Shown: positions 12,501 through 55,274 of the stretch, one piece after another
Position numbering within the stretch: position 1 is the stretch's first letter
Layout: each line of letters begins with the position of its first letter
DNA from: Hericium rajendrae
Lineage: Eukaryota; Basidiomycota; Agaricomycetes; Russulales; Hericiaceae
DNA: 64,000 bases
Direction: 5' to 3'
Assembly (NCBI GenBank): GCA_033439255.1
Contig: CM065878.1
Coordinates: 496,001-560,000 of the forward strand
Made by a program: the position numbers and the translations under genes
Notes under the pieces: model-generated
Seen by the model: the letters and a program-made list of their open reading frames with translations, nothing else
The model's database searches: none
Told to the model about the DNA's origin: nothing

Positions 12501-15500
12501 TTCTCTAGCATCTTCTGCGAATAGTACCTTGAGTAATCGTATGTGGGAGTGGGTCCGATGGTGAGAACATGGGTCTCGGGCTACAGCGGTGCACGGTTCC
12601 ATTCAGAAGGGGGAACGAAGAGGAAAGAAAAGAAGAGGGCTTGCCTTCATGGGAGGGAGCATGTAGAACATGTGGGCAAATCTAGTGGTCAGCCGATAGC
12701 CGTAATCCCTCCAGAAGGTCCAGTTGCTCTTGATCTGGAGCGTGGCATATGGATTTATGGGGAACGTGAACAAGGGATCCTCATAGAGCCTGAGGTCCTC
12801 TGCAGTGGGGCCACTGAAGTAAGTGTCGAATATGATGTCGAACCTGGGCCACAGGGGACATTTGGTCCGAATCATCGTAGCCTGGTCGTCCTCCATCTGT
12901 CGTTCAGCGGATGCAATGGGCAGCCTACGGGGCAGCAGCCTGCCTGATCTGTATGTTGGACCATAGGCCCTTCCGAGGGGCAGGGCGGGCCTGTCATGTT
13001 GAGCCAACGGGCCATCGACGTCATTCTGGGCCGACGATGGGGCAGGCTGTTGTTGAAGGGGAGACATCGTTGGTGGAGAACGGTGCCTGGGCAGTGGCAT
13101 GCTCGGACCCTTCCCCTCAGGCAATCCTTGCTGTGCACATTGGATCCGAGGGGAACCCGAGCAATCCGGACAGGTGTCGACTAGGCGTTGTAGGGTGCAA
13201 GCCGTAGGTGGATTCTCGTGATTGAGGTCTTGGATGACCTTTGGTGTTACCTGCAGGGAACCGTATGCCAGGGTTGGGTTGATGTCACCCACAGACCAAG
13301 ACTGCCACTCCTCTTGTGGGGGCGTGTCTCGAAGGGAGTCATGCATGGCCCACATCTCTGCAAAGATGCCCTGGCATTCTCTGTACATGGCCAGCCTTAC
13401 CTGATGACCACAGAGGATTGGGTGGTGCAAGAGGTTGCCGTCTGGATGGAAATGAAGCCCGTATTTGAAAAAGTCTGTCAAAAGCTGAATGATGACAATG
13501 CCGCAGTCGTAGCCATTCTGCTGGGGGCTCAGATGGAAGAAGGAGAGATGGTCCCAGTCGGGTTCCGGCCACTCGTGGAGCCGGCAAATATGCCTGTAAG
13601 TTTCTGAGCCTTGCAAAATCGATTCCCATTTCCTCCGGATGGGCGCAGAGTCGTTGGTCTGAAAGTTAGACCCTATTATGTAGACCTGGGAGAGTTGGGG
13701 AACGAGCACTACGAGCAGGAAGTGGTTTTCATGCTCGAGCACGGCATAGGCAACAGGCTTAAGAGGCAGAGGGCCGGTCTCGGCATGAAAATATCGCCGA
13801 CGAAATTTGAGGATGGCGTGTTCGTCGATTGCAAGAGCTCCACCTTTCCAGCCCATTGCCGTCTGAGTGTCTACATAGTTGACCTGTGTTGTCGAAGCGT
13901 ACGAGTACCACTTGTAGAGCAGATAATAGTCCAGAATATACTGGCTGAGCCAGCTCTCGGGCCGGAGAGTGACCAACTCAGACATGGCAGGTGCCAAGAG
14001 GTCGGGGGTGGAAAGGTACAGGGCTACAGCAGAAGAAAAAACAATGTGAGCTACGGTAGCGTGGGAAGTCTCCGTGGGTGAGGGACCTTACCTGACCTTC
14101 TTGTGAAAGGATCTTCAGATAGAGAGCGGCGTATCCGCTGTGTCGGCGGTCGAGGCACGTTCTGCGATGTAGCCCTTGGCCTGGGAGTGGGATCTCGCTG
14201 TGTCAAATTTGACACTTGAACAGGGAGCCGTGATGCTTCCTGGGGTGAGGAAACAGAACTCGTGTGACATGCGGGGTTGTCTGAACAATCCGGGCAAATC
14301 CTGACCATCTTTTCTAAGGCTTGGGAAGTGGGGTTGGCCGTCCTGAGGTTTTCCATGTCGTGTCTGACACAGCTCTGGGCGGCATCGTCGACATCCTGCA
14401 GCTCCTCTGTGCACCAAGACTCCCACTCTTCTCGAGGAGGTGTCTTTCGCAGGGACTGATACATCTCGCTCACCCCAAAGAAAATCTGCCGACACTCCTT
14501 GTACAGCTCGAGCCTGAGGCGGTGACCGCAACGATGGGGCGTTGGGAGGATGCCTCCGTCGGGACGGAAGTCGAGCCCATTTTGGAAGAAGGCCATCAAG
14601 AGCTGAATGACCACGATGGCACTGTCGTGTTCCTTTCGCGGGCCCTTGATGCGGTGGAATGTCAGGTCAGCCAAGTCCCTCTGTCGCCAACCATGCAGCA
14701 TGCAGAGGTGCAAGTAGGTTTCGCGGCCATTCAAGGACTCCCATCTTTGCCTGAGGGCAGTCTGGTCTCCAGGTTTGATGTTGGATCCCGCAATGTGGAC
14801 CTGCAAAGACTCTGGAATGAGTAGTATGAGCAGAAGGCAGTGATTGTCAGACACGGTGTATGCAACGGGCTTGAGGGGCAGCGAACCCCTCTCCGGGTGA
14901 AAGTACCGTTTTCGGAAACGGCTCAGCAACTGCGACCTGGAGAGGTTATGTTCTTCCCTGCCAGGGCCGACCTCTTGTCGCTCCCCTGTCACCTGCTTGT
15001 CCACATAGTTGACCTGAGTTGTGGGAAAATGTAAATACCAGTGGTGGAGCAAATAGAAATCGACGAGATCATGCGATAGGTCCTCCTCAAGGCTGAGACC
15101 TGGCAACGCTTTCAGTGCAGAAGGCCAGAGGCTGGGAGCGGAGAGATAGAGACCTGGGAGAAAGAGTCAAACAAGGGATAACAGAGGGAGATGCATCCAC
15201 TGTAGGGTCGTACCAGACTTGTGTTGCACGAGAGCTAATGACGGGGGAGCCTGAGATTGTTGAGGACTTTTTCCGAAGGTGGCCCTGGTTTTACGCGTGC
15301 GAGAGGTGGATCGGGGATTATGGAGCAGTTCATCTGTCTCTGACCATGTGGGACGATTCCGGGAGGCCGGTGAGTCGGGTAACCATTCGTCAGCCTCATG
15401 GTCATCATCGAACATCTCATCATCGTGATCAAAGAGAGTTGGGCTGCCATCGTGGTGGGCCTGTAAAGTATCAAGGAAGAAGGAGACTCGGTCCAGCTGC

Positions 15501-15781
15501 TCATTATATATACTTTCATTGCTGGACGGTGGGGGGTCTGGGATGGAGCGAATGAGGTGGTAAATCTCTTGAAAGCCTCCTTCGAAAGGCACTATGGAAT
15601 GCTCCTCATCCTCCCCGGGCCCCATAATGGCTTGCATCTTGGCGGAGAGAGTGGGAGAACCCTGGTTGATGAGTGGAGATCCACAAGAGCCATCAGAGTC
15701 AAAATCTCCGGTGTCGAGCGCCAAGAGCCTTTGCATCTGCCGGTCGAGGCTAGAGATAGGGGCAGAGGCACTAGAGGACAT
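9541..15781 (-). CDS. 1993-aa protein with tandem Ulp1-like (C48) peptidase domains and a large unknown C-terminal region
   Basis: Five exons on the minus strand: 15781-15214, 15153-14092, 14023-12645, 12580-11132 and 11064-9541, total 5982 nt with no internal stop. Introns are 60-68 nt; three are GT-AG and the third (12581-12644) appears to be GC-AG (AAG/GCAAGC). Residues 1-190 are low-complexity and acidic. Residues about 195-430 and 550-790 are two related Ulp1-like domains that share LYLS..., QVNYVD, RFRKRYFH and GSLPLKPVAY-type motifs. Domain 2 keeps His (HENHF, about 644) and QQNGYDCG (Cys about 717); domain 1 reads EHDSA at the equivalent site (about 366), so its nucleophile is lost. 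The usual Asp position is Gly in both (YIIGSN, HIAGSN). Residues about 1000-1990 match nothing I can name; the end is an Asp-Glu run. Known Ulp1 enzymes cleave SUMO-like conjugates; this activity is only inferred here. Intact and GC-richer than the surrounding repeats. It could be a host gene or a passenger of an old transposon, since Ulp1-like genes occur in fungal KDZ-type elements. Confidence 0.88.
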
Positions 15782-15921
15782 GTCAAGTTTGAACGGGATA
15801 TTCAGTAGCAGTACGTCGGGTCGAGAAAACGCAGAGAGAGGACGGAAAGGGGAACTTGAAAGGAAACAGCTTGTGGCTTGCGCCCATCAACGTACGTAAT
15901 GGAATTCACCGCCGTCCCTGC

Positions 15922-36839: not shown

Positions 36840-37746
36840 CGACCCCACCCTCCCTTCCGCATTACAACCCCACATATTCACATGCGCACCACGATGAATT
36901 GCAGGATCAAGCACTATGGGAAGGAGTAGGAACTTGTGTGAGGGTGCACGCTTTTCCCTACAGGATTTTTACTGCAGTTCTCCAGGATCACTGAGCAATC
37001 AGGTGAAGTGGTGATATATGGCTGGGAAAGACGGACTGGAGGATGGCTATGTACGCGATAAGCAGTAGAACCGTCGTCCACCCTGCTCCATCAACATCAA
37101 CCATATCGCTGCCTCAATTCCCCTTCAGTGTCAGCCTGGTACCCATCTCCAGCTGCTGTCAAGATCTCTACAGCCACCACCCTCTCCACACCACTTGTTC
37201 CCTCTCCTACCCACTTCTAGTGCCCGTCCTGTTCTTCAGGTCGGTGCTCGCTTTGTGCTTGCATGGAGGGGAGCTTTTGTGGTGCAGATAATATTTCGAC
37301 AACCACAACTCAAGATACATGACCCTGCATACTTAGGCACCTCAACGTTTTTCCAGCGGGCAGGGGCTTAGGGTACTCAGGGTCACACGGATGTAAAGCT
37401 GCATGATGCGCCAGCGTCAAATAGCTATATGGATACAAAAAAAAAAAAAAAAAAAAAAGAGTGTGAAGTTGACATCAACAACATGGAGGATGAGTATTTT
37501 GTGGTGCACTGCCCCCTTCTCCTGCACAGTGTCACTCAGCTCAGCAGCATCTTTCTGCACTTACAGGATGACAAAGACATCATGTCTGAAGCCGAGGACA
37601 ATGAGAACCAGTGCAGTCCACGTGCTCCATCTCATTCCATGTGTATCAAACTTCATTCCTGTGCATGCCTTTCTATGGCACTAACCCTCAAATCATACAG
37701 AGAGGGCACAAGCAATTCTCCACAGCATTGCTGAATATCACATGGC
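36840..37746. other. No supported gene; A22 run at 37437-37458
   Basis: An A22 run may be a retrotransposon tail. The following frame (37471-37730) is open but unrecognised. This is the left flank of the large Plavaka element. Confidence 0.4.
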
Positions 37747-37783
37747 CACATCAGGAACCCTCTCAACTATCTGAGCTGTCTGA

Positions 37784-38640
37784 AATTATCTGAAAAGCTT
37801 CTGAGACTGCCTGACTGTCTGATGTTTTGACTAATTTTCTGATTTCTGAGACAACATTTTTTCAGTCATATTTCAGACTTGTCAGACCTGAATCAGACAG
37901 ATCAGAATACATTCAAATTTTCAGCTATCACTCAGATTACTTGCAGATTAATATCAGAACTCTTCAGATTTATGATTTAAGTTTCAGATTAGTATCAGAA
38001 ATAAACAGAATTATTGGTGTATCTCAGAGATAATCAGAAATAATCAGACTTTAGCATAGCTTTTAGACTTTTATCAGATACTAACTAGAATGTATCTAAG
38101 ATTCAGACTTACTTCAGATAAAATCAGATTTTAATCAGATTTGTAGTCTCTTCTCAGACATGTATAAGATGTAATTAGATAAATTTAGATTATGCTAGAT
38201 ATTAGATAACTTAGGCAACTCAGGAGAGTCAGACAACTCAGACAGCTCAGACATCTATCAGATATATAAGACATACTTAGATAAACTCAGACTATGCTAA
38301 AACAATCAGACATCTCAGATACTTCAGACAACTCAGATATCTCAGACAAGTAATAGGCATACTAGACATAATCAGATAAACTCAGATTATATTCAAAATT
38401 AGATACCTCAGACAACTCAGACAACTCAGACAACTTAGACAACTCAGATATTTCAGACACCTTTGACAATCCAAACAACTCAGATATTGAAGACACCTAA
38501 GACAATTCAGACACCTAAGACAATCTAGACAACTCAGATACTTCAGACACCTAAGACAATTCAGATACTTCAGACACCTAAGACAATTCGAACAACTCAG
38601 ATAGTCTCAACAATCTAGACAACTCACTCAAACAATTATT
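37784..38640. repeat. Subterminal TCAGA(C/T) array, left
   Basis: Dozens of TCAGA/TCAGAC pentamer-hexamers at irregular 6-12 bp spacing (ACTCAGACAACTCAGACA ...). It matches, in reverse complement, the array at 53345-53775. Confidence 0.9.
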
Positions 38641-38889
38641 GAAAAAATAGTTCATCTATACAATCATTAAAAATTTTAGCCACAAAATTCTAATATATAG
38701 CCTTTTTATTATCTTATCATCTTTCAAGTACTACATCCTCATCATACTCAAATCTACACTATATTTTTATTGTTATAATTTTTAAGTTTATATACAATGC
38801 TATTAATACTAATTTTTTTTTTCACAATCATGTTCATAAAATTACTGTATTTTTAGTCTATAAAACAATTTGAAAGAAAAAAAATGCTA

Positions 38890-40385
38890 CTAAAATGCTA
38901 TTTCATTTGCATGATGGTCAGAAAATTTGTTGACATAATAAGAGTGAAAAGTATTTTGGAGTGTATAAGTGTGATCAAAGTCAGAAGGAAGATGTTCATG
39001 TCCACAAACTCCAATCAAATGAGCACTTCGAAGAATAGTATCCAAATGAACAACAGAGCAAACATTAAATCTTCATTCAATTCTCTTTCTACAATCTACA
39101 TTCCAGTATCTTCATCTGGTTTATCATCAGTTGTAATAAACCATGAAATAAGTGCACATGGATAATTCTTTCCTCTATGAATAAAAGAAAAAAAGAGCAA
39201 GACCTGTTCAACATATAGACCTTTCATTCCAGGTAAATTAGGATTACTTTCAACAAAGACACAATCACGACAAGCAGGACCATTATGCCACTTAGAGCAT
39301 GAGCAAATACGATGTCGATGAAATCCTGTCCTACCAGACAAATCACTAGGTGAATAAAGTGTAGCAATTGCTAAATGAAAAACATCAATTTTATATGGCA
39401 ACTTAGGACATTCAGACAAGTCCACATCTGATGATGTTTTTTCTGGTGTTGCTTCAATTTGATCATACAAAAAGCGACGAATTAGTTCAGCAAAGTCTGA
39501 TTGCTTAATTTTTTCTGCAACATCAAATGGCTTTCTAGGATATGTAGTTTCTCACCATTTGGCCAAAGTGACATTTGCCATATTATATCATGATCAGATT
39601 CTTCTTCTATTGTTGCTGCTCCTACTGGCTTATCTAGCATGCCACGTTTAATAAAATCATTTTTACATGCTGCTAGTTTATCAAGCCTCTGATTTGTTAA
39701 AAGCATTTGTTCAAGAGCATTAAATCGGCTAGAATGATACCATGGTTCTTTTACAGCTCTAATATGTTTTGACTCTGTAATTGATGTGCACAATCCATTG
39801 GGTGCTGCAAATTCTTCAATCCAATGATGATAATGTTTTAAGGAGTGTTGTCGAGGTAAAGAGATACCATCAGGACATACTCCAGCAGTTACAAATATCT
39901 CTCACTCTTTCCAAAAAATTTCCAAGATAGCATCCAATTCATCCAAAGTGTCTTCATCAAATATAGATCGTCGTACAAGATAACAGAAGTCTATAAGAGC
40001 ACAAACACAATGAACCATTTTTTGAGGAACAAGGCCATCAATTGCAGGCAAAAATACTTTCATCAATGCCTTAGAGTCATCTCCAGTCCATTGTGCAAAT
40101 CTACGACCATCTGGAAAGCAATGAAGCTCTGGAAATACTGGCACAGCAGCAATTCTACGATCAATTTCTGCAAGAATTTCATTTCCTTGTGTTTCTTTAT
40201 GAGTTTTCAAAATATATTGTTCAACTCAAGTTACTATATAATCATAAAATATGCCTTTAATAATTTGATGCAAGAGATCAGGAGATATAAGTTCATGAAT
40301 ATCAGCACGATAAAAAGATGCTGTAAAGGGCTGAACAAAAAGTTAGTCAATTTTTTAAAAGATACTGTAAAAATGGATGCTCACC
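38890..40385 (-). pseudogene. Plavaka transposase, C-terminal half
   Basis: Minus-strand reading: PFTASFYRADIHELISPDLL, HQIIKGIFYDYIV, then EIDRRIAAVPVFPELHCFPD, GRRFAQWTGDDSKALMKVFL, VFHLAIATLYSPSDLSGRTG, VLLFFSFIHRGKNYPCALIS, DEDTGM and a tail ending NKFSDHHANEIAF. These are hallmark segments of Plavaka transposases. A 5' intron is suggested by GTGAGC ... TTTTTGTTCAG just before PFTAS. In-frame stops at 40226-40228 (TGA) and 39096-39098 (TAG) stand where Trp is expected, and there is a frameshift near 39050. The N-terminal half lies at 46285-47640, some 6 kb away. Confidence 0.85.
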
Positions 40386-40453
40386 ATTATTACGATTCCT
40401 TAGAATCGTTTACTCTATACCACCTTTTCATAGTGAAAACGACACCAAAACGA

Positions 40454-40550
40454 TGACGATGCCCATTAGGCAGTTGGCTTATATAATCACACATCTTCAA
40501 TCTAACGAGTTTGCAGGTTCAATTCCAGCTCTGGCCAGACTTTTTCTTTT
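40454..40550 (+). mobile_element. tRNA-derived SINE-like repeat, copy 2
   Basis: CCCATTAGGCAGTTGGCTTA, TATAATCACACATC, GAGTTTGCAGGTTCAATTCC (B-box 40516-40526), then CTTTTTCTTTT as a possible Pol III stop. Closely similar to the minus-strand copy at 35076-35170. A third, 3'-half copy is at 41130-41172. Confidence 0.65.
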
Positions 40551-40559
40551 ACACTTTGT

Positions 40560-41010
40560 TTACTGTAACTTGGTCAGTTCTTGACCAATTCACACATTCT
40601 CAAATGCAGCAGAATCTACTCATTTATCGCTTTCTAGCCATATATTATGCATCTTGATCCATGCAGATCTTGCAGAATGCAAAGCATTTCTGTATTTTTC
40701 CCCCTAGTATGCTTGATCCTCAGCTAGCTCAGTCAGTTCTTGACTGATTCACTCATTCTTAGATGTATCAGAATTTACTCATTCATTGCTTTCTAGCCAT
40801 ATTTTATGCATTTTGATCTGTGCAGAACTCGTAGAACACGAAGTACTTCTGTATTTTTCCTCCTAGTATGCTTGATTCTTAGTTATCTCAATCAATTCTC
40901 CACCGATTTACTCGTTCTCAAGTGGATCAAATACTACTCATTTATAGCTTTCGAACCATATTTTTTGCATTTTGATCCATACAGAACTCATAGAATGTGA
41001 AGCACTTCAT
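40560..41010. repeat. Satellite, about 159-bp unit, three units
   Basis: CAGTTCTTGAC or CAATTCTCC landmarks recur at 40575, 40734 and 40893. Diverged relatives of the 158-bp satellite at 41653-43235. Confidence 0.85.
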
Positions 41011-41051
41011 CATGGTATAGCTGTACCATAGTTGTGATCACATGAGCACTT

Positions 41052-41077
41052 CACCATGGTACGGCCGTACCATGGTG
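41052..41077. repeat. Perfect 26-bp palindrome
   Basis: CACCATGGTACGG and its exact reverse complement meet at GGCC. A diverged neighbour (about 41012-41050, CATGGTATAGCTGTACCATA) differs mainly by transitions, so the two form a decayed tandem pair of about 42 bp. Confidence 0.9.
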
Positions 41078-41129
41078 GTGATCATGTGATGATTACATAA
41101 TCAAAACTCGGTGGTGAAGTGTGAGTTCT

Positions 41130-41172
41130 CTTGAGTTTGCAAGTTCAATTCCAGTTCATGCCAGACTTTTTT
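41130..41172 (+). mobile_element. SINE-like repeat, truncated copy 3
   Basis: GAGTTTGCAAGTTCAATTCC followed by AGTTCATGCCAGACTTTTTT: the 3' half of the 40454-40550 repeat with a mutated B-box. Confidence 0.5.
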
Positions 41173-41174
41173 GA

Positions 41175-41652
41175 TATTTTTTAATACTAAGAATAATATA
41201 ATCAATGAGCAATTAGCATTAGTACAATGTCTACTCTTATAGTATATTATAAGTACAGAAATGCCTAGAAATCTATGATTTTGAAGACTGATTATATAAT
41301 CAAAATTTTAGTTTTGAAGCACCAGCAGTAAAGTCTTGCTTTCTCATGAGCTTTACATCCTGCATGCTTGTCATGTTGGCTGCAAGGCTCGACGAGTATC
41401 TCCAAGTCATCCGCTGAGTGGTTGACGGTTTGGAACCAGGAGGTACTCGACCCGGCGGCTCACCTTGGTCGTCTTGTATGTATCTAACTTGCTGAGCTGG
41501 CAGACTAATTTACTTATAGGTCTCTAAATCTAGCACCAACTAAGGTATATTAGAGCTTATCAAAATGATATTGATAGCTGCTTCCAGATGAGGCCTTCTG
41601 AGCTATGCTAGCCTATCTGCCTAGTTGAAAATCAACCAATTATCATTATTCT
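41175..41652. other. No supported gene
   Basis: A1T-rich sequence between satellite blocks; a CTCGACGAGTATCTCCAAG ... GGTACTCGACCCGG stretch (41388-41458) is GC-richer. Nothing recognised. Confidence 0.4.
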
Positions 41653-43235
41653 AATGATCTTGAGGTAAGTCCATCAATTCTCTGCCAATTCTCTCGTTCT
41701 AAAATGTGTTGGACTCTACTGATTAATCGCTTTCCAGCCATGCTACATAGCCCCCAAACCATCCAGAACTCGAAAATCAAGACTCAAGATTGGGATTACC
41801 CCCTCAAGATCTTGACCTTGAGGTAAGTCCTTCAATTCTCCACCGATTCTCTCGTTCTAAAATGCGTTCAACTCTACTGATTAATCTCTTTCCCGCCATG
41901 CTACATAGCCCCCAAACCATCCAGAACTCGAAAATCAAACCTCAAAACTGAGATCTCCCCCCCAAGATCTTGATCTTGAGATACGTCCCTCAGTTCTCCA
42001 CCGATTCACTCGTTCTAAATTGGGCTGGAATGTACTAATTAATTGCTTTCCAGCCATTCTACATAGCCCCCAAACCATCCAGAACTCGAAAATCAAAACT
42101 CGAAACTGAGATCTCCCCCCCAAGATCTTGACCTTGAGATAAGTCTCTCAGTTCTCTACCGATTCACTCGTTCTAAAATGCACTAGAATGTACTAATTAA
42201 TTGCTTCCCAGACATGCTACATACATCCCATGCCATCTAGAACTCGAAAATCAAAACTCGAAACTGAGATCTTCCCCCTAAGATCTTGACCTTAAGGTAA
42301 GTCTGGCAGTTCTCCACCAATTTAATTGTTCTAAAATGCGCTAGAATGTACTAATTAATCGCTTTTCAGCCATGTTACATAGACCCCATGCCATCCAGAA
42401 CTCAAAAATCAAAACTCGAAACTGAGATCTCCCTCCCAAGATCTTGACCTTGAGGTAAGTCTGGCAGTTCTCCACTGATTTAATTGTTCTAAAATGCGCT
42501 GGAATTTACTGATTAATCGCTTTCCAGACATGCTACATAGACCCCATGCCATCCAGAACTCGAAAATCAAAACTCGAAACTGAGATCTTCCCCCTAAGAT
42601 CTTGACCTTAAGGTAAGTCTGGCAGTTCTCCACCAATTTAATTGTTCTAAAATGCACTAGAATGTACTAATTAATCGCTTTTCAGCCATGTTACATAGAC
42701 CCCATGCCATCCAGAACTCGAAAATCAAAACTCGAAACTGAGATCTCTCCCTCAAGATCTTGACCTTGAGGTAAGTCTGGCAGTTCTCCACCGATTTAAT
42801 TGTTCTAAATTGCATTGAAATGTACTAATTAATTGCTCTTCAGACATGCTACATAGACCCCAATCTGCCCAGAACTCGAAAATCAAAACTCGAAACTGAG
42901 ATCTCCCTCCCAAGATCTTGACCTTGAGGTAAGTCTGGCAGTTCTCCACCAATTTAATTGTTCTAAAATGCACTGAAATGTACTGATTAATCACTTTCCA
43001 GCCATGCTAAATAGACCCCAATCTGCCCAGAACTCGAAAATCAAAACTCAAAACTGAGATCTCCCCCCAAGATCTTGACCTTGAGGTAAGTCTGGCAGTT
43101 CTCCACCAATTTAATTCTTCTAAAATGCACTGAAATGTACTGATTAATCGCTTTCCAGCCATGCTACATAGGCCTCAGTCCATCCAGAACTCAAAAATCA
43201 AAATTCGAAATTGAGATCTTCCTTTCAAGCTGATC
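41653..43235. repeat. 158-bp tandem satellite, about ten units
   Basis: The landmark CTTGACCTT (or CTTGATCTT) starts at 41811, 41969, 42127, 42285, 42443, 42601, 42759, 42917 and 43074: period 158 with one 157. Each unit carries a near-palindrome GAGATCTCCCCCCAAGATCT and the string CCATCCAGAACTCGAAAATC. Element A interrupts the array at 43238; a last satellite scrap resumes at 46171 (TTGACCTTGAGGTA). Small minus-strand frames here repeat with the unit and are not genes. Confidence 0.95.
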
Positions 43236-44762
43236 TTCATCTGAGAAATTTGAATTTGACATAGCTGCAGGTTACATTATAGGTGCTATCATTGAGCTAT
43301 CAGAGCTATGAAGTTTGCTTATCCAGCTATGTAGAGCTATGAGAGCTATCATAGCCTACATAGCAGACAGTGTGACATTCATAGGGTTATCATAGCCTCC
43401 ATAGCCTGTAGTCTGATATACATAGGGCTTTCATGATTAACAAAGTGTGCTATGGCTACTATGATGCCTATGATAACTACCACAAGTCAGATAAGCACCA
43501 GATATTACAAGTCAAAATTTATCATATTAAATTGTAATAAATCTACTATCATACATATGTAAGCTAGTCGAGCTACTGCGTAGGGCACAGGATACGGAGA
43601 GCACGCAAGTCACCATGGAGGGTGCAGGCACAGGTGCAAAGACAGTGCGGGTACACAAAAGACAGCACGTGCACACAAAAGGTGGCACGGTATGCACGAA
43701 TGCCGGCATGGAGGGCACAGGGGTAGGTGTGGGCTGCACGCAGCTACACATGGTCCAGCTGGGTTGCCATGCCCACAAATGGAGTCAGGGCTGCCATGCA
43801 TGCACACAGGTTGCGTACATGCACGTGGGACGTTGCACACATATGCAGAGCATCTGAAGGGTGCAGAGTGTTGAGCGGGCACGCGGAAGCACGCATGCAT
43901 GCAAGGCATTGTAGGCAAGTGGCGTTGAGTGTGAATGCTGGGTGTCATATGTACGTTGTTGTGGGATGGGGCCTTGCAGCACCACCATGCACTGGCATCT
44001 GTGCACATGCAGAGGCAAAGCTGGGCACGTGCGGGGGATGTTCAGCACGTGTGGGTGTTGAGCATGTGCGGGAGGCCTGGAGCGAGCGTGCGGGACATTT
44101 TGCATGCACGAAGAGACACTGTATGGCACGTCATGCATGTGTGGTTGTCGTGCATCTGTGCAGGTTGTTGCGCACACATGCGGGGCATGTTGAGTTGAGC
44201 AGGTGCAGGAGCATACACGCAACCGGGCATGGCGTGCATGTCTGGGGCATTGTGAGCAGGTGCGAGGCATTGTGAGTGGGTGTGGGGGCTTGAGCACGCA
44301 GACGGGACATTGCAAGTGTGCACGGTGTTGAACACAAGCATGAGGCCTTGTGGGGATTGAGATGAGCATGCGGGGTCATAGCTGATAGGCATGAATGACA
44401 TCCGAGTCCCATTGCCATGGCAATGGGACTACAGCACATGCACATGCATGGACGTGGGGCATGGACGATGACATAGCCCATGCGCACATGTCGTTGATGT
44501 CGTGCAGACAACGCCATGTGGTACACGCATGCGTGCATGCTGTGGCCTTGTGCACACTGGTGCACGTAGAAGGGGATGGTGGTTGGAGGCATGCGCAGGG
44601 GTCGCAGCCTGTTGTTGGAGTCAGGCATGGGGTGTACGAGCTGCATGTGGGGCGTGGATGTGGTGTAGACAGGCCAAGGAAGGGGCGATGAGAGTGCAAA
44701 AAAGGCAGCAGGATCATAGGATGGTAGCACAGGGATGTGGGATCAACAGAATAAAAGATATC

Positions 44763-44796
44763 GAGAGTGTTGCTTGAAAAACAATTGACACTCTCT
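44763..44796. repeat. GAGAGTGTTGCT hairpin of element A
   Basis: Arms GAGAGTGTTG and TTGACACTCTC pair imperfectly. Followed by TTGATTAGTACG and, on the minus strand, a GGTGAGTA donor-like site at about 44838-44845. Confidence 0.65.
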
Positions 44797-45250
44797 TGAT
44801 TAGTACGAAAAAATGATAAGAGGCTTTTTTTTTACTCACCTAAGGCCCTCTAAGTATCTGCTAAAAAAAACCATCCCAGCCGTATTGAAAGCTGATAGAG
44901 AATGAAAGAAATGGAAGGAAGGAGGCTGGAGGAGGAAACACGAAGGAGGGGAAGGGAGACTGGTCAAAAGGAGTGAAGTGTCGATGTGTTAAACTCAGTG
45001 CTTCAGCCACCAAACGAGCGAAGCTTCATTGCTCGAGCCTCAGCAAATCAAATAAACTTGTATAAATTCAATGAAAAAAAGGACAGTGATAGATTATACA
45101 TTTAATTAGAATGTATGAGAACACTGTGTATCTACTGGACTGTAAATCTGTGAGCAGCAGCATCAATGTAGTAAAGTCTGGCATCCAGTCTCTGTCACAA
45201 CACTCGGCAAGCGCCCGGCAATCACAAATCCCAGTTCTGTCTGGGATTCC

Positions 45251-45260
45251 TATATAAGGC
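45251..45260 (+). promoter_or_regulatory. TATA promoter in element A
   Basis: TATATAAGGC preceded by GGGATTCC and followed by TTACCTCTTGCTCTTTAAC. The same block, with TATATAAGG, stands at 59043 in element B. A splice donor (AAAG/GTATGC, 45434) lies about 185 bp downstream. Confidence 0.6.
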
Positions 45261-45560
45261 TGGCATGACGCACTTTACCTCTTGCTCTTTAACCCCCACC
45301 ATCCCTTGCCATGTCGACACATTTGTCATTGTTGTTTGCTCACTTGTCATCATTTGCTCACTTGTCATCATCATTTGTTCACTCGTTGTTGTTGTTTGCT
45401 TATTTTATTATTATTGTTCTCTTTGTTGTTAAAGGTATGCTGTTATTCTTAATTATCTTATAACTTATACTAATGTCTTCATACTTATTACACTACCATG
45501 TAGTCCTACTAGGTAAGCTTGATTGTTTTTTTATACTGATGTCTTCAAATTGTCTTGTAG

Positions 45561-45583
45561 ATTTTTGCTTTTTTGTTAATCTG
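45561..45583 (+). other. Conserved 23-nt exon-like segment between splice sites
   Basis: TGTCTTGTAG / ATTTTTGCTTTT...AATCTG / GTAAGTC. Element B has TCTTTCAG / ATTTCGCTTTTTGTT...TTG / GTAAGTT at 59239-59259. Conservation of both splice signals around so short a segment suggests a spliced leader exon; there is no coding sequence downstream. Confidence 0.5.
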
Positions 45584-46284
45584 GTAAGTCTTCATATATT
45601 ATCTTTGTTATCTTCTAATACTCATGTCTTTTCTTATTTGTATCTTTTGCTTTTTGTAGTCATTGTAAGTTTGTTACCTTTTGTAGTTCTGTAGTAGTCT
45701 CTGTAGCTATAGTAATGTTTTGTAATGAAATTGTTTGAGTAATATAATTTATCCAATTTTCGATGTTTGTGACTGTAAGACATCAGACTATTGAATCTAT
45801 AATATATTTATTTTATATGCTATTTTAACATATTTGATAAAAGTAATATAGAGTAGATAGAAATCTTACTAGCTAGATATAATATAATGATAGAGATATA
45901 ATATAATGATAGAGATATATTATATAGTTAATATAGCTTCTATAGTTATCTTATACTAGAATAACTATGATAGCTATGATAGCTTATGCCCTATGCTATG
46001 GTAGCCATGGTAGCTATGATAACTTATGCCTTATGCTATGACAGCTATGACAAGCTATGATAGCTTTGCATAGTTTACTTGACTGCTATGTATAAAAGAG
46101 GACAGCTATGGACCTAGGAAAGCTATGTAGCTAATATAGTGTTATATACCAGTGACATATTTCTCAGATGTTGACCTTGAGGTAGCTATAGATTTTATAG
46201 AGATTTATAATCAATCTGACAAGTGAGACTTTACATCATTTATGCACTGTTTCTAAATATAACTAACAATAAAAAAGGAATCGT

Positions 46285-47640
46285 ATTGCCGTGCGAAGCA
46301 TCGGCCCTCTTCCACCAAGTATCTGGTACTATACCATACTCAGGCCATAATTTTGTCTTACTTGTAGACTGAGTCAATTTTCGTGTATCCTCATGACTTC
46401 TCAATCCTTGGTCTGGATTATTATCAAGTTGATTTGGTCTGCATTTGCATGTAAAACACCAGCCTTGAACAATAGCAGACAGATCAACTTGCTCTTGATA
46501 ATCTCCAATATAAGGGCCAAGGCCATAAATAATACGACGCAAGTGTCTATCTGGACAGCAAAGCACTTCAGGTGTAATCATGCCAGGCCGTAAAGATTTT
46601 AGAATGACCTTTAAGGATTCATGCAAAAGTTTTCGCTTAAATCTGCAAAATGGAACACTTTTTTTGAATCTACAATCTGCTTTTGCAATAGAAAGATATC
46701 CCATAACAGTCAAAGCATCACAATGAGCATGTCGAACATTGTTATGCACATTTCCTATTGAGGCATAGAGTGGATGATACTCAGTATTTCCTGTACCAAC
46801 TGAGACTATTGTTTTATCACTACCCATGATTAGAGGTACAAACATTGCACCATGAGTATTTGGATCTTCAGCAATTATATCAGCCTGATGTCATGCCCAA
46901 TTTCCAGACATAAAATCAGTCCATTGATGTTTTCCATTTTTAAACACATGCTTTGAAGCATAATCAATTTCACCCTTGAAATCAGGATTTGCCAGCTGAT
47001 TTTTAATAACTGTATGTGGATTGTGATACCACACATGATATGTATTTAACATCCATCTTGGAGGATTTTTCTTGGGTATCTTTCCATTATAATTGACTGA
47101 AAAATGAAGCCATGGTGCATCTCCCAAAGTAATAGAATCAAGAACATGATTCAAGTCCTTTTGATTTGCAAAAGGAGGTTCACCATCATTAGTAGCAGCC
47201 CACAAATCCATAAGATCATCATGATTATCCTCTGAGATCTGAATACGACGAAATAGCAAATCTGCAGTCTCAAATTCAACTCGATTCTGAAAAGGAGACC
47301 AATCATCATTAGCTTTAGGCATAGGAAGGCCATGTGGCTCTGCATCATCATCAAGATCATTGCCAAATTCATCACAAGGTCTGCCATCGAGTAAAGGATG
47401 CCTCTCTATTTGAACATTATTATTATCATCATTATTTTCTGCATCCATAGACAAATCAGAGTCAGATTGCAAGGGAAAACCATGATCAGGTGATGCTGGC
47501 CGAGTACGAGAGGGAAAAGGATGAATTGCATCTATGTGTTGTTGAAGACCCCAAGATGTCCGAAAGTCATGACGACAAGACTTTATTGTAGGCGTCGGAC
47601 AAACAATACTTCGTGAACGATGAGATGGTCGCAAAGGCAT
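46285..47640 (-). pseudogene. Plavaka transposase, N-terminal half
   Basis: Starts with a basic stretch and a C2H2-like finger (CRHDF...LQQHIDAIH), an acidic linker, then PFQNRVEFETADLLFRRIQI, MLNTYHVWYHNPHTVIKNQL, ANPDFKGEIDYASKHVF, TDFMSGNWA, a TGA stop (46891-46893) where Trp is expected, HQADIIAEDPNTHGAMFVPL, NVHNNVRHAHCDAL, KPGM-like RPGMITPEVLCCPDRHLRR and IYGLGPYIGDYQEQVDLSAI, VQGWCFTCKC and EYGIVPD. Conservation stops near 46290-46305, about where the C-terminal half resumes at 40385, so roughly 5.9 kb of satellite, SINE and element A separate the halves, perhaps inside or next to an intron. Plavaka transposases are RNase H-fold cut-and-paste enzymes of fungi. Confidence 0.85.
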
Positions 47641-48296
47641 ACCAGAGATAAGTCAATGACAAACAGTGTGTCGCTTGGATTGTCAGAACACATAAGAGAA
47701 TTTCGAAGCAATCCAGAAGTTCAATATTCTGCCAGTGAGCAGCTCCAAGAATATAAGCAGAGAGCAAGAGTATGAATAGCCCAAGAGCAACAGCACACTT
47801 GAGATGTTGTGCCCAAGATTGCACAAGAAAGGAAATCATGAAGTTACTAGCCGAGGTGACTTGTGTCCAGACGCAAGTCGGTGGTGCCACCGCTACTCAT
47901 CTCGCTTGTGGTTGTCACTTGTTGCTTCTTGCTGTTACTACCACCTGCCCAACACTACCTGTCCATTTTGATGTAGTCAGTATGTGAGCAGCACCTCGAA
48001 AATGACCTCGAGAAGCTCACCAAGCCCCGAGTATTGCCAACGACAGAGAACTGAGTGCCGATGACCAACCGAAGACACCACGGAAGAAGCATTGGTTGGA
48101 ACTGGAGCTGCTCGCAGATGATGCTGCAAGAAACAGTACATTATGTCGAAGGAGCTGAGGGACGCGAGCGGGATCACAGCGATTGGGGCAAAGAAACGAT
48201 GGGAATGTCGTTCGTGAGTAAATTCCTCATATGTAAGTTGACATGCAGCAAACTTACCTTTGATCTGCAGAACAAAAACCCATTTTGGCAGCAGTG
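47641..48296. other. Divergent intergenic region between transposase and cargo gene
   Basis: Both genes point away from it, so it should hold two promoters. It contains ATGTCGAAGGAGCTGAGGG (48144) opening MSKELRDASGITAIGAKKRW, which may be an upstream exon of the cargo gene joined through GTGAGT (48212) to CTGCAG (48270), but the join does not stay open into 48297. Confidence 0.4.
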
Positions 48297-51200
48297 ATGT
48301 CAAACACTGCACCAGACGGCAGTGAAACCGAGTCTGATGATGGTGTTGAGCCTGATCCACCGATCTGTCAAGCTGTGCGAGAAGAGGAAGAGGAGGAATC
48401 CCAAGAGGTGCAGCCGATCGGCCTCGATGGGGGGAGACAGAGGTTGGAGGAGTTGAAGGAAGAGCTACAAGAAGATGAATACAAAGGTCAGTGCTCAGAG
48501 TCATCATGTTAATTCATCATGACTTACCGTCAGATGTTCAAGATGAACACCAAGTCAGCCCAGATATGCTGATGACAGAGGATGTGCCGATGGTAGAGGA
48601 TGAGCACAAAGAAGGGTGTGAAGAAGGTAGCGGGGATGACAGTGACATTGAAATGGACATTGATAACGTTGATGACTCGGATTGGGTCGAACATCCACGA
48701 AGGCAGAAGAACTGCAAGAAGGAAAAGGTCAGCTTCAAGCAGTGCGATGAAGGCATGCTCGACTCGATACGGAAATTTGCTGATGTGTACGTAGATGCTC
48801 ACCTTTTGTTCCCAGCCACATCTTTGCTAACTATTCCCATACACTCCGAATGCCCTGACATCACCATTGACTCACCTTCCAATCTCGCAGGGTTGGCATT
48901 CGGAAAGACTGGCATGAGAAAACCGACTATCATGACCGTGCTGAAAAAGGAGCAGGAGATGAGGCTTCCGAAATGAACGAACGAAGCCCAGAGATAAGTG
49001 ACAACAAGAGACTTGAAGATGTTGAGGATTCTGAAGACGATGAGTTTGGCGAAGCACAAGCACAGAGAGGGCCGACACAGGTGAGTAGTGCTCAGTATCA
49101 TATGGCACTGTACTAGCTAATAGCTCATTCTTTTAGCTCAAGATCACCTTCAATGACAATGACAACAATGAGCTCGAATTTAGCGGACACCATCGGATGT
49201 CGCCCCCTGGTATACCTACTTGCCGCATTTCGACTTCTCCCGACTCCAATTCCAGCCCAACTCACTCTCACGACGTTTCGCGTGGGCCGACGCCTTATCT
49301 CCCCGATCTGCCCAGCCCGGCTCACCCTCGCAACATTTCATGGGAGCCAATGCCATACTCACCCAGCCCAGTTCGCTCTCGTGATGTTTCACGTGGGCCA
49401 ACACCTTATCTCCCTGACCCGCCCAGCCCGGCTTGCCCTCGCAATGATTCGTGTGGGCCGACGCCTTATCTCTCTGATGCACCCAGCCTGGCCCGCCCTC
49501 GCGATGCTTTGCACAGGCCAACACCATACCTCCCTGACCTGCCCAGTCTGACTCATCCTCGCGACGTTTCGTGGGAGCCCACACCGTATTCACCCAGCCT
49601 GGCTCGCTCCCGTGACGTTTCATGTGGGCCAACACCGTACCTCTCCGACCCACCCAGCCTGGCCTCTTGTCGCGACCTCAACAGAAATGAACATTCCAAT
49701 GGGGATGAACTCATGCATGTCGACATGCGTGACATGGGACGTGGGCACCTCTCTGGAGGCGAGCCTGCATGCACCGACTTGCACAGTGCTGCGAAGGGAC
49801 GCAAGTACGATGAGGACAAGCCCACCAATGCTCATCCCCATTCTTCCTCAAGTTCTGCACGCGGCAAGGGGAAAGTGCGACAGTGTGGCAAGGCCAAGCC
49901 TGTGCCTGTCGACTCGTGCAAAGTAAGGAGTGGACGCAGCTATGACGAGACCGAGCCTGCATGCATCAACTTGCACAGCGGTGGGAGCGGGTGCCGCTAC
50001 AACGAGGCTGAGTCTGCATGTACTGATTTGTGCCAGTCGGGGAGGGGGCACCACTATGACCAGGCCGAACCCACACGCACCGACCGGCAGGAGCGGGCAT
50101 GCTACGATGAGGCTGAGTCCGTGTGCACAGATTCATGCTACGAGGGGGATAGGTGCTGCTATGACGAGGCTGAGTCTGCACTCACCAGTTTGCACCAAGT
50201 GGGGAGGGGGTGCTGCTATGACCAGGCCGAACCCACATGCACCGACTCATGCAGTGAGGGAAAAGGACACAAGCACAATGAGGACGAGCCACTCAGGGCA
50301 CGTCCTCATCTTTCATCGAGCTCTGCACAGAATGAGGGGAATGGGGGCCACCATGGCGAGGATGACCCTGCACGTGCCGACTCGCAAAAGGTGGGGAACA
50401 AGCACCGCTATAACAGGGATGAGTCCGCATGCAACCAAAGGAGCAGGCATCACTACGACGAGGACGTGCTTGCCCACAACAACTTGCACAGCCGGGAGAA
50501 AGGGTGCAGGCACAACAAAAATGAGCCACTCAGGGCACGTCCTTGCCCTTCATCAAGCTCTGCACGGAATGAGGGGAATGAGAGCTGTATGATGAGGACA
50601 ACCCCGCACATCTCGACTCACACAACATGGGGACAAAGCACCGTTACGACGTGGATGAACCCCCGTGTGGTATGGGGAGCAGACGTTGTTATGATGGGGG
50701 CAAGATCACATGTTTCGACTCATGCAATGTGGAGAGCGGGTGCCACTACAATGAGATGGAGCCCGTGCGCACCACCTTGCATGACAAGGGCAAAGGATGC
50801 CAGTACAGTGAGGATGACTTGGAGCCCGCTGAGGCTCGACGCCATCCTTCTTCAAGCTCTGCACGTAACAAAGAGAAAGCATGACAGCACAACAAGGCCG
50901 AAGCCATGCGCACCGATCCGCACAGCAGCGAGAGCGAGCCCCGCTATGATGGGGGCGAGCCTATGCATTTCGACTTGCAAAATGTGCAGAGCGAGTGCAG
51001 CTACAAGGAGGACAAGCCTGCATGAGGTGCTTCATGTGACAGGGGCAAAGGGTGCAAGTACGATGAGGATGAGTCCACCGAGGCTCATCCGCATCCTTCC
51101 TCAAGCTCTGCACGCAGCAAGGGGAAAGCACGGCAGCATGACAAGGCCGAGCATACTGACTCGGAGTCCCTTTTTCCTTCTTCCATACTCGACGACATAT

Positions 51201-53071
51201 GAGACAATACATGCAATGGGGGCAATGGGCACCATTATGAGAATGAGTCGGTAGAACCTCATTCTCGTTCACCATCAAGTTCTGCATGGAATGGAGAGAA
51301 TGGGTGCTGCTATGATGGAGATGAGCCCGTGCATGCCGACTCGCACAGTGTGAGGAAAGGGCATCAGCACAACGAGGACGAGTCAGTCAACACTTGTCCT
51401 CATCCTTCATCAAGCGGTGTGCGGAGTGGGGGGAGAGGGAGCCACCACAGCGAGGACGAGCCTGTCGAGGCTCGTTCTCGTCCTTCGGCAAGTTCTGCAT
51501 GCAACAATGAGTGTCTCAAGGGCAAAGGGCACCAATATGATGATGATGAGCCCACCCATCTTCCATCAAGCTCTGCGTGCAAGGGGAAGCACCTGCACCG
51601 CCATGATGCGAGTGAGTCCGGCAATGACAGCAACCACGCGGATGAGCCCCAACGGCCTCTGCATTCCAAGCCATCTGCTGGTGGCAGGCCTCTCCCTGTG
51701 AACCCTGATGATGACCAAATGGCCAATGTTCATCATCGTACAGTCATGGAACCGCATGCGATGCCAGCATGCAGTGACGCCAGTCGCCGTTCATTTTCGG
51801 TGCCCACCAATGCCCGTACTCCAGTAAGTCCTTCTTTCAATTGTTGACATGCTATCTAATTGCTATTTAGCAGCAGACAGCGGCAGCTACATCTACTGCT
51901 CATCGGCCCTGTCATGCTCGAGGCCAGCGTGCACGCAGTACAACCTTATCTCAAAGGGTAATTTACTATATGCTGTCTCTGCAGTTGCAATACTCATGCC
52001 AATTTCTAGCCTTCTCACACACTTCACTCCTGTTCTCGGTGGCACAGTGATCATGAAGCCAATTCGGATGATGCTCAAGGCTCAAGATGAACAAGGAAGC
52101 TGAGTAACAGCAACTTACTGCCCAGCACGCTCAGGCGTTGGCAGGATGTATTCCTGTTCATGTGGCGCGACGTGATGGGCACCCATAAGTACCCATGGGA
52201 TACTCAAGATGTTCTTGAGCAGGTTCAACGGCTCTGGAACAAAGTCTTTTCTAATGTCCCTCGCAGTTCAACAACAAAGATGATCTGGTTTATGGTTTGG
52301 TATGTTTCTGTTCATGTATTGTTACTCAAATTTCTGATTCATCTTGTGCTTCAGCTCGTGCAGCGTACTTACGAATGGAGGAGCGGCTTTGCAGTTGCTG
52401 CTGTCGAGGCTGTTGCCGATCACCTCAATGATTCTGATATAGATAGTGACGAAGATGCAGAGGAATGCACTGCCACTTATATGCTTGGTATGAAAAGTGA
52501 CCGCGACGACATGTCACTTCCATTTATCTTCTGCTTGTCAACCGAGTATGATGATGGCAGCATAGTATGTTTTCTCCTTCTGCTTGATCTTGCTACTAAT
52601 TTATTATTATCAGGAGAATGAAGACGCATTCATGGAATGAGCAATTCTGAAGACTTTTGGTGTTGCGCATCTGCAAAATCTTAATAAGATACCTGAGGGT
52701 GCTTGGCATCGTAAACGGCCAGTTGGTGCACTTGCCCTGGCAACTGCAGTGGTAAGTCCTTTGTTTTTCTTCCTTTACCTATCTTATCTCTGTTACAGGT
52801 TGAGCGTGCATGGACCAGACGGCTGCCCTACCCAGATGATCCAGATCCAGACTTGGAGGCTAGGATGAAGAGCTCATTTTCTTGTGGGACATGGGGTGAT
52901 GCCACAGATGAGTATGCAGAAGCTATTGCAGATCTTTCTAATGAAAAGTGAGACCCTATTATTGCTCAGGCGAAAAAGCTAATTTGGCCTACTAAGCTCA
53001 AGGATGATGATTCTAGCAAGTCAGTCATTTCTACTTGTCATCGTGGACTCAAGGCATTGGTCAACAAGTAG
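48297..53071 (+). pseudogene. Cargo gene of the Plavaka element: acidic N-terminus, long repeat region, conserved C-terminal domain
   Basis: Exons 48297-48486, 48534-48786, 48891-49080 and 49137-51833 join in frame with GT-AG introns; later exons start at 51871 and 52799. The N-terminus is very acidic. 49200-49700 encodes degenerate repeats of PTPYLPDPPSPAHPRDVS type; 49700-51700 encodes Cys/His/Tyr/Asp/Glu-rich repeats (HHYDQAEPTCTDSC, ARPHLSSSSARNEG). A one-base frameshift near 50590 and stops near 50882 and 51023 break it. The C-terminal part (LVQRTYEWRSGFAVAAVEAV, FGVAHLQNLNKIPEG, RPVGALALATAV, VERAWTRRLPYP, WGDATDEYAEAI) resembles uncharacterised agaricomycete proteins I have seen with YEWRS and GALALAT..VERA motifs; no function is known to me. 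TGA stops at 52638-52640 and 52949-52951 sit where Trp would fit. Confidence 0.65.
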
Positions 53072-53344
53072 ATTTGTTTTATTACTCTTGATGCATCTAA
53101 CTTTAGATTTGAAATTTTGATTATATCTTCTTATAACATGCTCTCTCCACTCAGTCTCATCCTTTTGTCTACATTTCTTTAATATGTTCTCTGACTACTA
53201 CTTGCTTCACTTCTAGATCTTTTTACTTTCTTTCATCCTTATCCCTTGCTTAATTTTTTTTCTTGTCCCTTTCAGTTTGGGTTTGACTTACAAATGATGT
53301 CTGGTTGATTTTTACATCAGAATCTAAAGTTGTGTTGGTTTATT

Positions 53345-53775
53345 TCTGGTGTGACTGTGAATTATCTAGTCTGACTGATCTGATCTGATCTGACTGATCT
53401 GACCTAAAGTGTCTGATCTGATCTGTTTGATCTGACAATCTTAATCTGACAACCTCTGATCTGAGAACTGAATCTCTGATCTGAGAACCTCTGATCTGAG
53501 AACCTCTGATCTGATTTTACTTTCTGGTCTGACAACCTCTGATCTGACTTGGATTTCTGATCTGACAAATTTCTGAGGCATCTGATTTCAGACATAAATT
53601 CTGATGTCAGATATTATTCTGACATCAGATGTTAATTCTGAATGTCAGAATTTATGTCTAATAGCAAAACTTAATTCTGATTTCAGAACCATTTTCTAAT
53701 CTTCTGAGTGTCTGAAATCTGAAATTTTTCTGAAATTTTCTGATTTTAGACAAATCTCAGACACATCAGACAAGA
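53345..53775. repeat. Subterminal TCTGA array, right
   Basis: TCTGATCTGA, TCTGACAACC and related units; the reverse complement of the left array at 37784-38640. The stretch 53072-53344 before it is AT-rich with nothing recognised. Confidence 0.9.
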
Positions 53776-53812
53776 TCAGACAGCTCAGATAGTTGAGAGG
53801 GTTCCTGATGCA

Positions 53813-54850
53813 GTGCATGACTCTGTGCCATCGTATTCAGCATATCACTTGATGCACTGTACGCACATTCAGTCTCGTGCACTACTGCAACTTCTGTCCA
53901 TTCACCTCGCCGGAGCTTGTGCAATTCTCCAGCCTTGCAGTCAACCCGAGCAGCGAGGCCATTGCTGTGGTCTCAACAGACTCGTTCGAAGTCTTCCTGT
54001 GGTCCGTAACAATTGGCAAGCTGCTTGTGCTCTGTGAGTGGGCTTACATTCTTGCTGACCGCAAAAGTGCTCACGAGTGGGACAAGGCCGTGCACACCTG
54101 AGCACAGATGTGCTCATGCTCATGTTCCAGCCGGATGGGCAGAAACTCATTGTCATGAGCCTCAACGGCAGCTGTCATTCTTTTCAACAAACCTTGCACA
54201 GCAGATGGGTGTCATCGAGGGCTGGTGTGACATCATGGGCCGGCTATGCATGGATGACTGCATGGCAGTGGGGAACAATGCATTGAGCAAGGTGTTCACG
54301 AGTGTCGAATGGAGCATGGACAGTGTGGGTGCATGCTCGTGGGCAGGAATATCAAGTATGTCCCACTATATGATGTGCATGAGGGCATGCTCATGCAGTG
54401 CTGACAGACCTTGGAGAATGTGTTGATTCATGATACCAAGGAGTTCCTCAACAGCTGGTGCATGATTGAGGTGGGAAACATCGACTTCATCATTGACCAC
54501 TGTGATGCGAGCGACCTCGAGGACTGGCTGGACACCATGCTCCCTGGCACATAGTGAGGTAACCTCTCGAAGTGGCAGCGTGGACAAAGTGCATGCACTT
54601 CTCACTGACACAGTGCTTGTGGGCACTGACATCGACAGAGGGTCTCTTGTGTATGCCATGGACAAAACGGCCACATTCAACCTGTTCGATCTTATGATGG
54701 AGCTCACATCGCAGATGGTGGAGGCTGCGCTGAAGGAGGGTGCATTCTGCTGCATGCTTGTGATGGTGTTCTGCCTGAACGAAAAGGAGATCATGCAGGC
54801 AGTGTATGGTGCCATGTTCCACCAGAACACATGCAGGCATATGATAGATG
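53813..54850 (+). pseudogene. PWP2: PWP2-like (U3 snoRNP/UtpB WD40 protein) pseudogene fragment
   Basis: Starting at the Plavaka right end: VRTFSLVHYCNF, TSPELVQFSSLAVNPSSEAI, STDSFEVFLWSV, then in other frames a VIEGW-like segment, CDASDLEDWLDTMLPG, GTDIDRGSLVYAMDK, TATFNLFDL, VEAALKEGAFCCMLVMVFCL and NEKEIMQAVYGAMFHQN. The order matches the middle WD40 repeats and C-terminal region of PWP2, a component of the small-subunit processome needed for 18S rRNA maturation. Frameshifts and TGA stops show it is dead; a functional copy must exist elsewhere. The N-terminal half is not recognisable on the left side of the transposon. Confidence 0.75.
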
Positions 54851-55274
54851 TACCTATGAAGCTACAAATATTTTGGTGGAGATTGAAGATGTGTAGATAT
54901 GAAATTCAAGTAAAATCAGATCTCCAAGCATGGAAAAACATGAAAACTGCCCAGATTCCAGCCATCAGATCTTGTAGAAAATTCCTTGAAATCATCTTAG
55001 GTCTATCTATGATGCCCCAACTCACTAAAGTGCACTGATATGGACAGAAGGCACAAAATGCACAGGAATCAAGGCAGAATTCTGGAGTCCAGCATGTCCA
55101 AGCTTACGTTCAAGCTCAACGTGTCAAGCACTAAATCATTTAATCACAAGCGCTGTATTGCTTCCTACGTGCTTCCTCGAATTCTCCTTTCCCTACAGCA
55201 TCAGATTGGTATGGTTTTCTCTTCGCCCATATATTCTCGGATGCTCACACTATCTACTTACTATAGACTGAGAA
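54851..55274. other. No supported gene
   Basis: Short frames only; AT-rich to 55030, then mixed. Nothing recognised. Confidence 0.4.

Follow-up and report, generated by a model that had tools for sequence, protein, structure and literature searches.

The window considered here is a stretch of 64,000 nucleotides from the basidiomycete Hericium rajendrae (assembly GCA_033439255.1, contig CM065878.1, positions 496,001 to 560,000 of the forward strand), and it carries at 37749-53810 a copy of a Plavaka DNA transposon, a name that reportedly goes back to Iyer et al. 2014. Two divergent genes, one for the transposase and a second designated ORF2, lie between identical inverted ends and inverted arrays of the short motif TCAGA. 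A preliminary description made from the letters of the window had placed the same element here, and its limits prove exact to the base. The genome searched was a single assembly (46.8 Mb, 19 contigs), and all counts below come from that one genome. The features of the element are as follows, in window positions.

37747..37748, no strand: left target site duplication, CA, from the reading of the flank and the empty site
37749..37783, plus strand: left terminal inverted repeat, 35 bp, perfect
37770..37849, plus strand: left outer block of seven TCTGA read inward, overlapping the inverted repeat; six relatives have eight TCTGA in the same 100 bp
37873..38601, plus strand: left inner array, TCAGA read inward
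38880..40364, minus strand: Plavaka transposase gene, conserved 3' part, with 78-84% DNA identity to six relatives
40391..46285, no strand: nested insertion of a high-copy family, about 5.9 kb; its inverted ends measure 11 bp and it contains tandem repeats of 158 bp
46286..47652, minus strand: Plavaka transposase gene, 5' part containing the PF18759 domain, which an in-frame stop at 46891-46893 interrupts, from the profile match and relatives
48000..53073, plus strand: second gene, ORF2, limits approximate, with counterparts in six relatives
53370..53743, minus strand: right inner array, mainly TCAGA with some TCTGA, read inward from the right end
53757..53789, minus strand: right outer block, TCTGA read inward from the right end, overlapping the inverted repeat
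53776..53810, minus strand: right terminal inverted repeat, 35 bp, perfect
53811..53812, no strand: right target site duplication, CA, from the reading of the flank and the empty site

The extended inverted arms of the element reach 45 nt at 93% identity. A pattern of 18 end bases, with no more than two mismatches, occurs at 114 genomic places versus one for a reversed control, and the exact 18-mer is found genome-wide only at the two ends of the window element; further copies with ends of this kind, whose absence the preliminary description had said would count against it, do therefore exist. Thirteen copies were tabulated for ends and duplication, namely the window element, C9a, C9b, C7, C2, C12a, C12b and six gene-less elements of 199-261 bp whose ends are of the same kind as those of the window element. 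A target duplication of at least 2 bp flanks 11 of the 13. Apart from the window element, 10 of 10 copies in the table end in perfect inverted repeats, 23-46 bp long. For the window element itself, a locus in the same genome, C7:996596-996990, aligns with the joined flanks through one CA. The paralogue of the left flank (37549-37748) ends at C7:996793 and that of the right flank (53811-54010) starts at C7:996792, the overlap being exactly CA, and the alignment is unbroken at the junction. Two bases match by chance once in 16 cases, yet this continuity through one CA supports the CA duplication. The C7 locus is an empty site, paralogous and not allelic.

The profile PF18759 (Plavaka) matches the minus strand at 46240-47652 in two pieces of one frame with an in-frame stop between them (E 3.1e-63 and 7.4e-25; 214.4 and 88.3 bits, where the cut-off is 26.3). 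The available text of Kojima 2025 (PMC12730594) places Plavaka near CACTA and divides it into A (TGT..ACA) and B (CATCA..TGATG; duplications of 2 or 3 bp), with PlavakaB belonging to the CMCT group. The window element has the PF18759 domain, termini of the form 5'-CATCA..TGATG-3' and a CA duplication with its empty site. It does not have the CAC..GTG ends and 3-bp duplication of CACTA/En-Spm; PF18758 (KDZ) matched none of nine window open reading frames scanned, and none of the KDZ matches listed lies inside the element. PlavakaB transposases are described as having, between the second D and the last E, one motif of the form C(2)C and another of the form H(3-4)H; candidate counterparts in the window are a CxxC stretch in the frame 46240-46890 and, in 39482-39901, a stretch rich in H. 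The window element is a complete copy of a PlavakaB DNA transposon, ordinary and dead. Its own ends, its CA/CA duplication, its transposase on the minus strand and its mirror-image subterminal arrays had all been proposed beforehand, and all hold.

The arrays are dense. TCAGA, read inward, occurs 41 times in the left 850 bp and 34 times in the right 700 bp, roughly 40 times the number expected from base composition, and TCAGA and TCTGA together amount to 2.1 per kb in the element interior. It is the commonest 5-mer in the left 850 bp of seven of seven copies and in the right 700 bp of six of six, the right end of C5 not having been found. Within the first 100 bp, each left end has seven or eight TCTGA read inward and then switches to TCAGA, and the right ends have four or five TCTGA and four TCAGA and then mainly TCAGA. 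The six elements of 199-261 bp retain TCTGA-inward blocks at both ends, and at least four TCTGA in the first 100 bp were counted in 8 of 16 further ends. Elsewhere in that set, the L017 end has one TCTGA, the L022-L024 ends have none and look like chance pattern matches, and L034 has both the array and ORF2. The switch of orientation between outer and inner array at each end is an addition to the preliminary description.

Nine genomic places were fetched for comparison with the window element. Both genes were matched in six of them (C9a, C9b, C7, C12a, C12b and C5); C4 and C18 gave matches only to the ends and to pieces of the nested repeat, and C2 only to such pieces besides its own ends. In the six relatives, the counterparts of 38.88-40.36 kb and 46.32-47.62 kb of the window lie side by side, with 22-48 bp between them. 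The left 200 bp of the intervening sequence has 43 genomic matches at 84-100% identity and the right 200 bp has 40; comparison of the two lists gives many left/right pairs that share an orientation and are spaced at about 4.9-6.1 kb. One copy, on C11, is 99.94% identical over 1.7 kb. Judging from these alignments, 40391-46285 is a later insertion of a high-copy repeat into the transposase gene. Given its absence from the relatives and its high copy number, the original length of the element was about 10.2 kb, and not the 16 kb first described; the relatives measure 9,658-10,099 bp, with C12b at 12,227 bp on account of an insertion of its own. The nested insertion, in which a transposase was not recognised, had gone unremarked in the preliminary description. 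As for its family, a repeat of about 5-6 kb, TTA precedes it in the eight loci seen, the copy at C11:1138-7039 begins 1.1 kb in from the contig start, and that at C18:432216-432421 is cut by the end of C18; the family is possibly subtelomeric.

The second gene consists of a basic N-terminus with a coiled-coil-like stretch, a repeat region (open frame 49137-51254) and a DUF6532-like C-terminal domain from about 52091, which is divided among four exons. The preliminary description took it for unrelated cargo. That a gene is carried on the plus strand stands; that it was picked up as a passenger, as in Starships or Helitrons, is very unlikely. The gene is long and repeat-rich, its half of the element is richer in G+C than the transposase half, and its frames in the window match no Pfam family, all of which would suit a passenger. 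Yet it occupies the same place in the same orientation in all six fetched copies with a transposase. When its 277-residue C-terminal domain from C9a, joined at GT-AG introns, was used to query the genome, 93 matches in 50 clusters were obtained, and 41 of the 50 have a divergently oriented Plavaka transposase no more than 12 kb away (at 3.6-5.3 kb for 32 of these 41). Shuffling leads one to expect far fewer, with a mean of 3.0 and a maximum of 8 for random positions and a mean of 3.3 and a maximum of 10 for local shifts (2000 draws each). Conversely, PF18759 gave at least 132 genomic matches, forming 79 clusters among the matches listed, and 42 of the 79 have a divergent ORF2. The ratio of nonsynonymous to synonymous substitution rates (dN/dS) is 0.16-0.26 for the C-terminal domain of ORF2 and 0.14-0.28 for the transposase domain, each in ten pairs drawn from C9a, C7, C12a, C5 and the window. 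The ORF2 C-terminal domain is thus under purifying selection like that on the transposase. On the strength of its constant presence, its divergent pairing and this selection, ORF2 is a component of the element and not cargo. Starship carriers are defined by a tyrosine-recombinase captain gene, and no captain domain was found in the nine window reading frames scanned. A literature search that took in few subscription papers found no paper on Plavaka with cargo.

The two halves of the element differ in synonymous divergence, which is greater in ORF2 than in the transposase in nine of ten pairs (0.69 versus 0.19 for C9a-C12a; 0.71 versus 0.19 for C9a-C5). In the tenth pair, C9a-C7, the value is 0.18 for both; these two copies share 88-90% identity across the transposase and the 3' half of ORF2. 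The gap would follow from exchange or homogenisation affecting the transposase half, or, in all pairs except C9a-C7, from a generally faster ORF2. The middles of the elements align too poorly for breakpoints to be placed. Separately, C12:966055-1000114 (L044-L047) holds two Plavaka copies that are 98.8-99.6% identical, inverted, 12 kb apart and without target duplication, the second gene of one of them being longer by 2.6 kb.

The window copy is not autonomous now. Its transposase has one in-frame stop in the domain in addition to the nested insertion, and the C-terminal exons of its ORF2 are disrupted by a frameshift and by two in-frame stops. The combination of perfect ends with a dead transposase had been taken to suggest mobilisation in trans or conversion of the ends. 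Perfect ends, however, are the rule in this family, and because the nested repeat is also high-copy with a near-identical copy elsewhere, insertion of the element first and damage later is inferred as the simplest order. It is improbable that this copy, with its transposase already dead, was then mobilised in trans. The ends are intact, and the six small gene-less elements, whose ends resemble those of the window copy, make trans-mobilisation likely in the family as a whole; but a 200-bp ORF2 probe matched only itself in the genome, so that no second composite copy and no sign of movement after the damage was found, and the nested repeat, with so similar a copy on C11, looks recent. Gene conversion as the source of the identical ends is less improbable, if still rather unlikely. 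End variants do change together, with TTACAA at both ends in C9a and C9b and TTGGAA at both ends in C7, C12a and C12b, even though C7 and C9a are otherwise so similar. Nevertheless, selection of both ends by one transposase yields the same pattern, and 35 bp is within the range of the other copies. Mutation of the kind caused by repeat-induced point mutation (RIP) was considered and rejected: at 2224 sites where four relatives agree, the window copy has 283 differences, of which 91 are C>T or G>A versus 63 T>C or A>G, a modest excess in mixed contexts with no clear RIP signature, and the stretch of the ORF2 C-terminus gave no usable sites.

The locus very probably represents, then, a PlavakaB element of about 10.2 kb without its nested repeat, lying in a repeated target with a CA duplication and bearing, between identical ends and inverted TCAGA arrays, a PF18759 transposase gene and, divergent from it, a DUF6532-like ORF2. 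The transposase would act on the CATCAGGAACC ends, and the element would move by cut-and-paste. ORF2 would act as a second protein, essential or helper, binding the TCAGA arrays much as TnpA does in plant CACTA elements. TnpA of En/Spm, in the available text of one account, recognises subterminal repeats and is needed together with TnpD (PMC2613891). The resemblance to CACTA/En-Spm lies in a transposase accompanied by a second protein, in short subterminal motif arrays at both ends and in gene-less relatives that retain the ends. The differences are that the window ends read CATCA and not CACTA, that the duplication is of 2 bp and not 3, that there are two divergent genes here whereas TnpD and TnpA are spliced products of one region, and that ORF2 has no Pfam match to a TnpA-type family.

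Plant VANC is an anti-silencing factor, and a role of this sort for ORF2, reading the arrays in order to counter silencing and not as a partner in cutting, is the main rival to the array-binding partner. It seems somewhat unlikely. Short-motif arrays suit either role, and in other fungi some PlavakaB families encode a TET/JBP dioxygenase presumed to aid escape from silencing, according to the available text of PMC12730594, but no TET or other modification domain was found in the ORF2 pieces scanned. The window element is like the PlavakaB of that text in its PF18759 transposase, its 5'-CATCA..TGATG-3' ends and its 2-bp duplication, and differs in its nested insertion and in having no TET/JBP domain in the frames scanned; a common second gene goes unmentioned in the text available, from which the words subterminal and TnpA are absent.

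Weak matches to PF20149 (DUF6532) were obtained with four of four ORF2 C-terminal domains (E up to 0.01, best E 1.7e-4). PF20149 itself has 18 genomic matches in 15 clusters, none overlapping an ORF2 cluster, and DUF6532 genes likewise pair with Plavaka: 10 of the 15 clusters are divergent from a Plavaka transposase at 12 kb, and 11 of 15 within 13 kb, a limit chosen after a pair at 12.2 kb had been seen. Shuffled expectations are a mean of 0.39 (maximum 3) for random positions and 0.34 (maximum 3) for local shifts in 5000 draws. The Plavaka mates of all 11 are among those without an ORF2 match, and the four clusters without a divergent Plavaka neighbour are on C18, C3, C6 and C8. Altogether, ORF2 or DUF6532 stands beside 53 of the 79 Plavaka clusters. 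KDZ transposons are listed beside Plavaka in mushroom genomes in the portions of the literature available, but they do not share the pairing: against 130 KDZ places, 0 of 50 ORF2 clusters were divergent (one convergent, two on the same strand), and so were 0 of 15 DUF6532 clusters. Tentatively, Plavaka may constitute a two-component superfamily in which proteins of DUF6532, an orphan domain family of fungi, and of families related to it act as TnpA-like partners that bind lineage-specific subterminal arrays (TCAGA here). The outermost 100 bp or so of array, which the 0.2-kb elements retain, would then be enough for movement, and the inner, flipped array would be regulatory.

Several observations weigh against this account of the element, its array-binding partner or the extension to other Plavaka elements. 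No DNA-binding domain was recognised in ORF2 by profile scans, nor any solved structural relative up to E 0.1, and with no such domain recognised the array-binding step rests on analogy. The DUF6532 scores shown, 21.2 and 21.9 bits, are below the Pfam cut-off of 24, so that ORF2 is at most related to DUF6532 and not a certified member. The selection result covers the C-terminal domain only; alignment of the N-terminal part and of the repeat region of ORF2 is poor even for the pair C9a and C7. Neither ORF2 nor DUF6532 is near 26 of the 79 Plavaka clusters. Three DUF6532 pairs have gaps of 8503-8506 bp and two have gaps of about 7.5 kb, and on C13 each of two transposases is paired with two ORF2 clusters; some pairs are copies of one element, and independent pairings are therefore fewer than counted. 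C12a and C12b, two of the 13 tabulated copies, have no target duplication. Finally, ends of type CATCAGGAACCCTTTCAGTCTTC (L025, L027, L035, L036) have zero or one TCTGA and no array near the end. The absence of a TCAGA array near the end was recorded for the same four loci under type CATCAGGAACCCTTTCAGTCTTCTTAG.

The element itself matters less than what follows from it. That 53 of the 79 Plavaka transposase clusters of this genome have a DUF6532-like neighbour offers a testable role for a domain whose function is unknown, and the pairing suggests that Plavaka shares the two-protein, motif-array logic of CACTA. Annotators should not count ORF2- and DUF6532-type genes as host genes or as cargo. 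One passage naming both Plavaka and DUF6532 was found, and it lists the domains together without a link, in a search that left subscription papers, Repbase entries and supplements mostly outside.

Elsewhere in the window, a row of long minus-strand open frames occupies 9541-15886, three of which (10940-12580, 12603-14087 and 14051-15166) were scanned and gave no Pfam match up to E 0.001. One further feature adjoins the element.

53812..55040, plus strand: right flank, decayed PWP2/Utp1-like sequence that is part of the target, from a match to PWP2 in the PDB (E 2.6e-6)

The match is of an 80-residue piece of frame 54466-55038 to solved PWP2 chains, and stops are present in the reading frames of this flank. 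The target is itself repeated, with paralogues on at least four contigs (C7:996596, C16:912120, C1:722895 and C13:854637).

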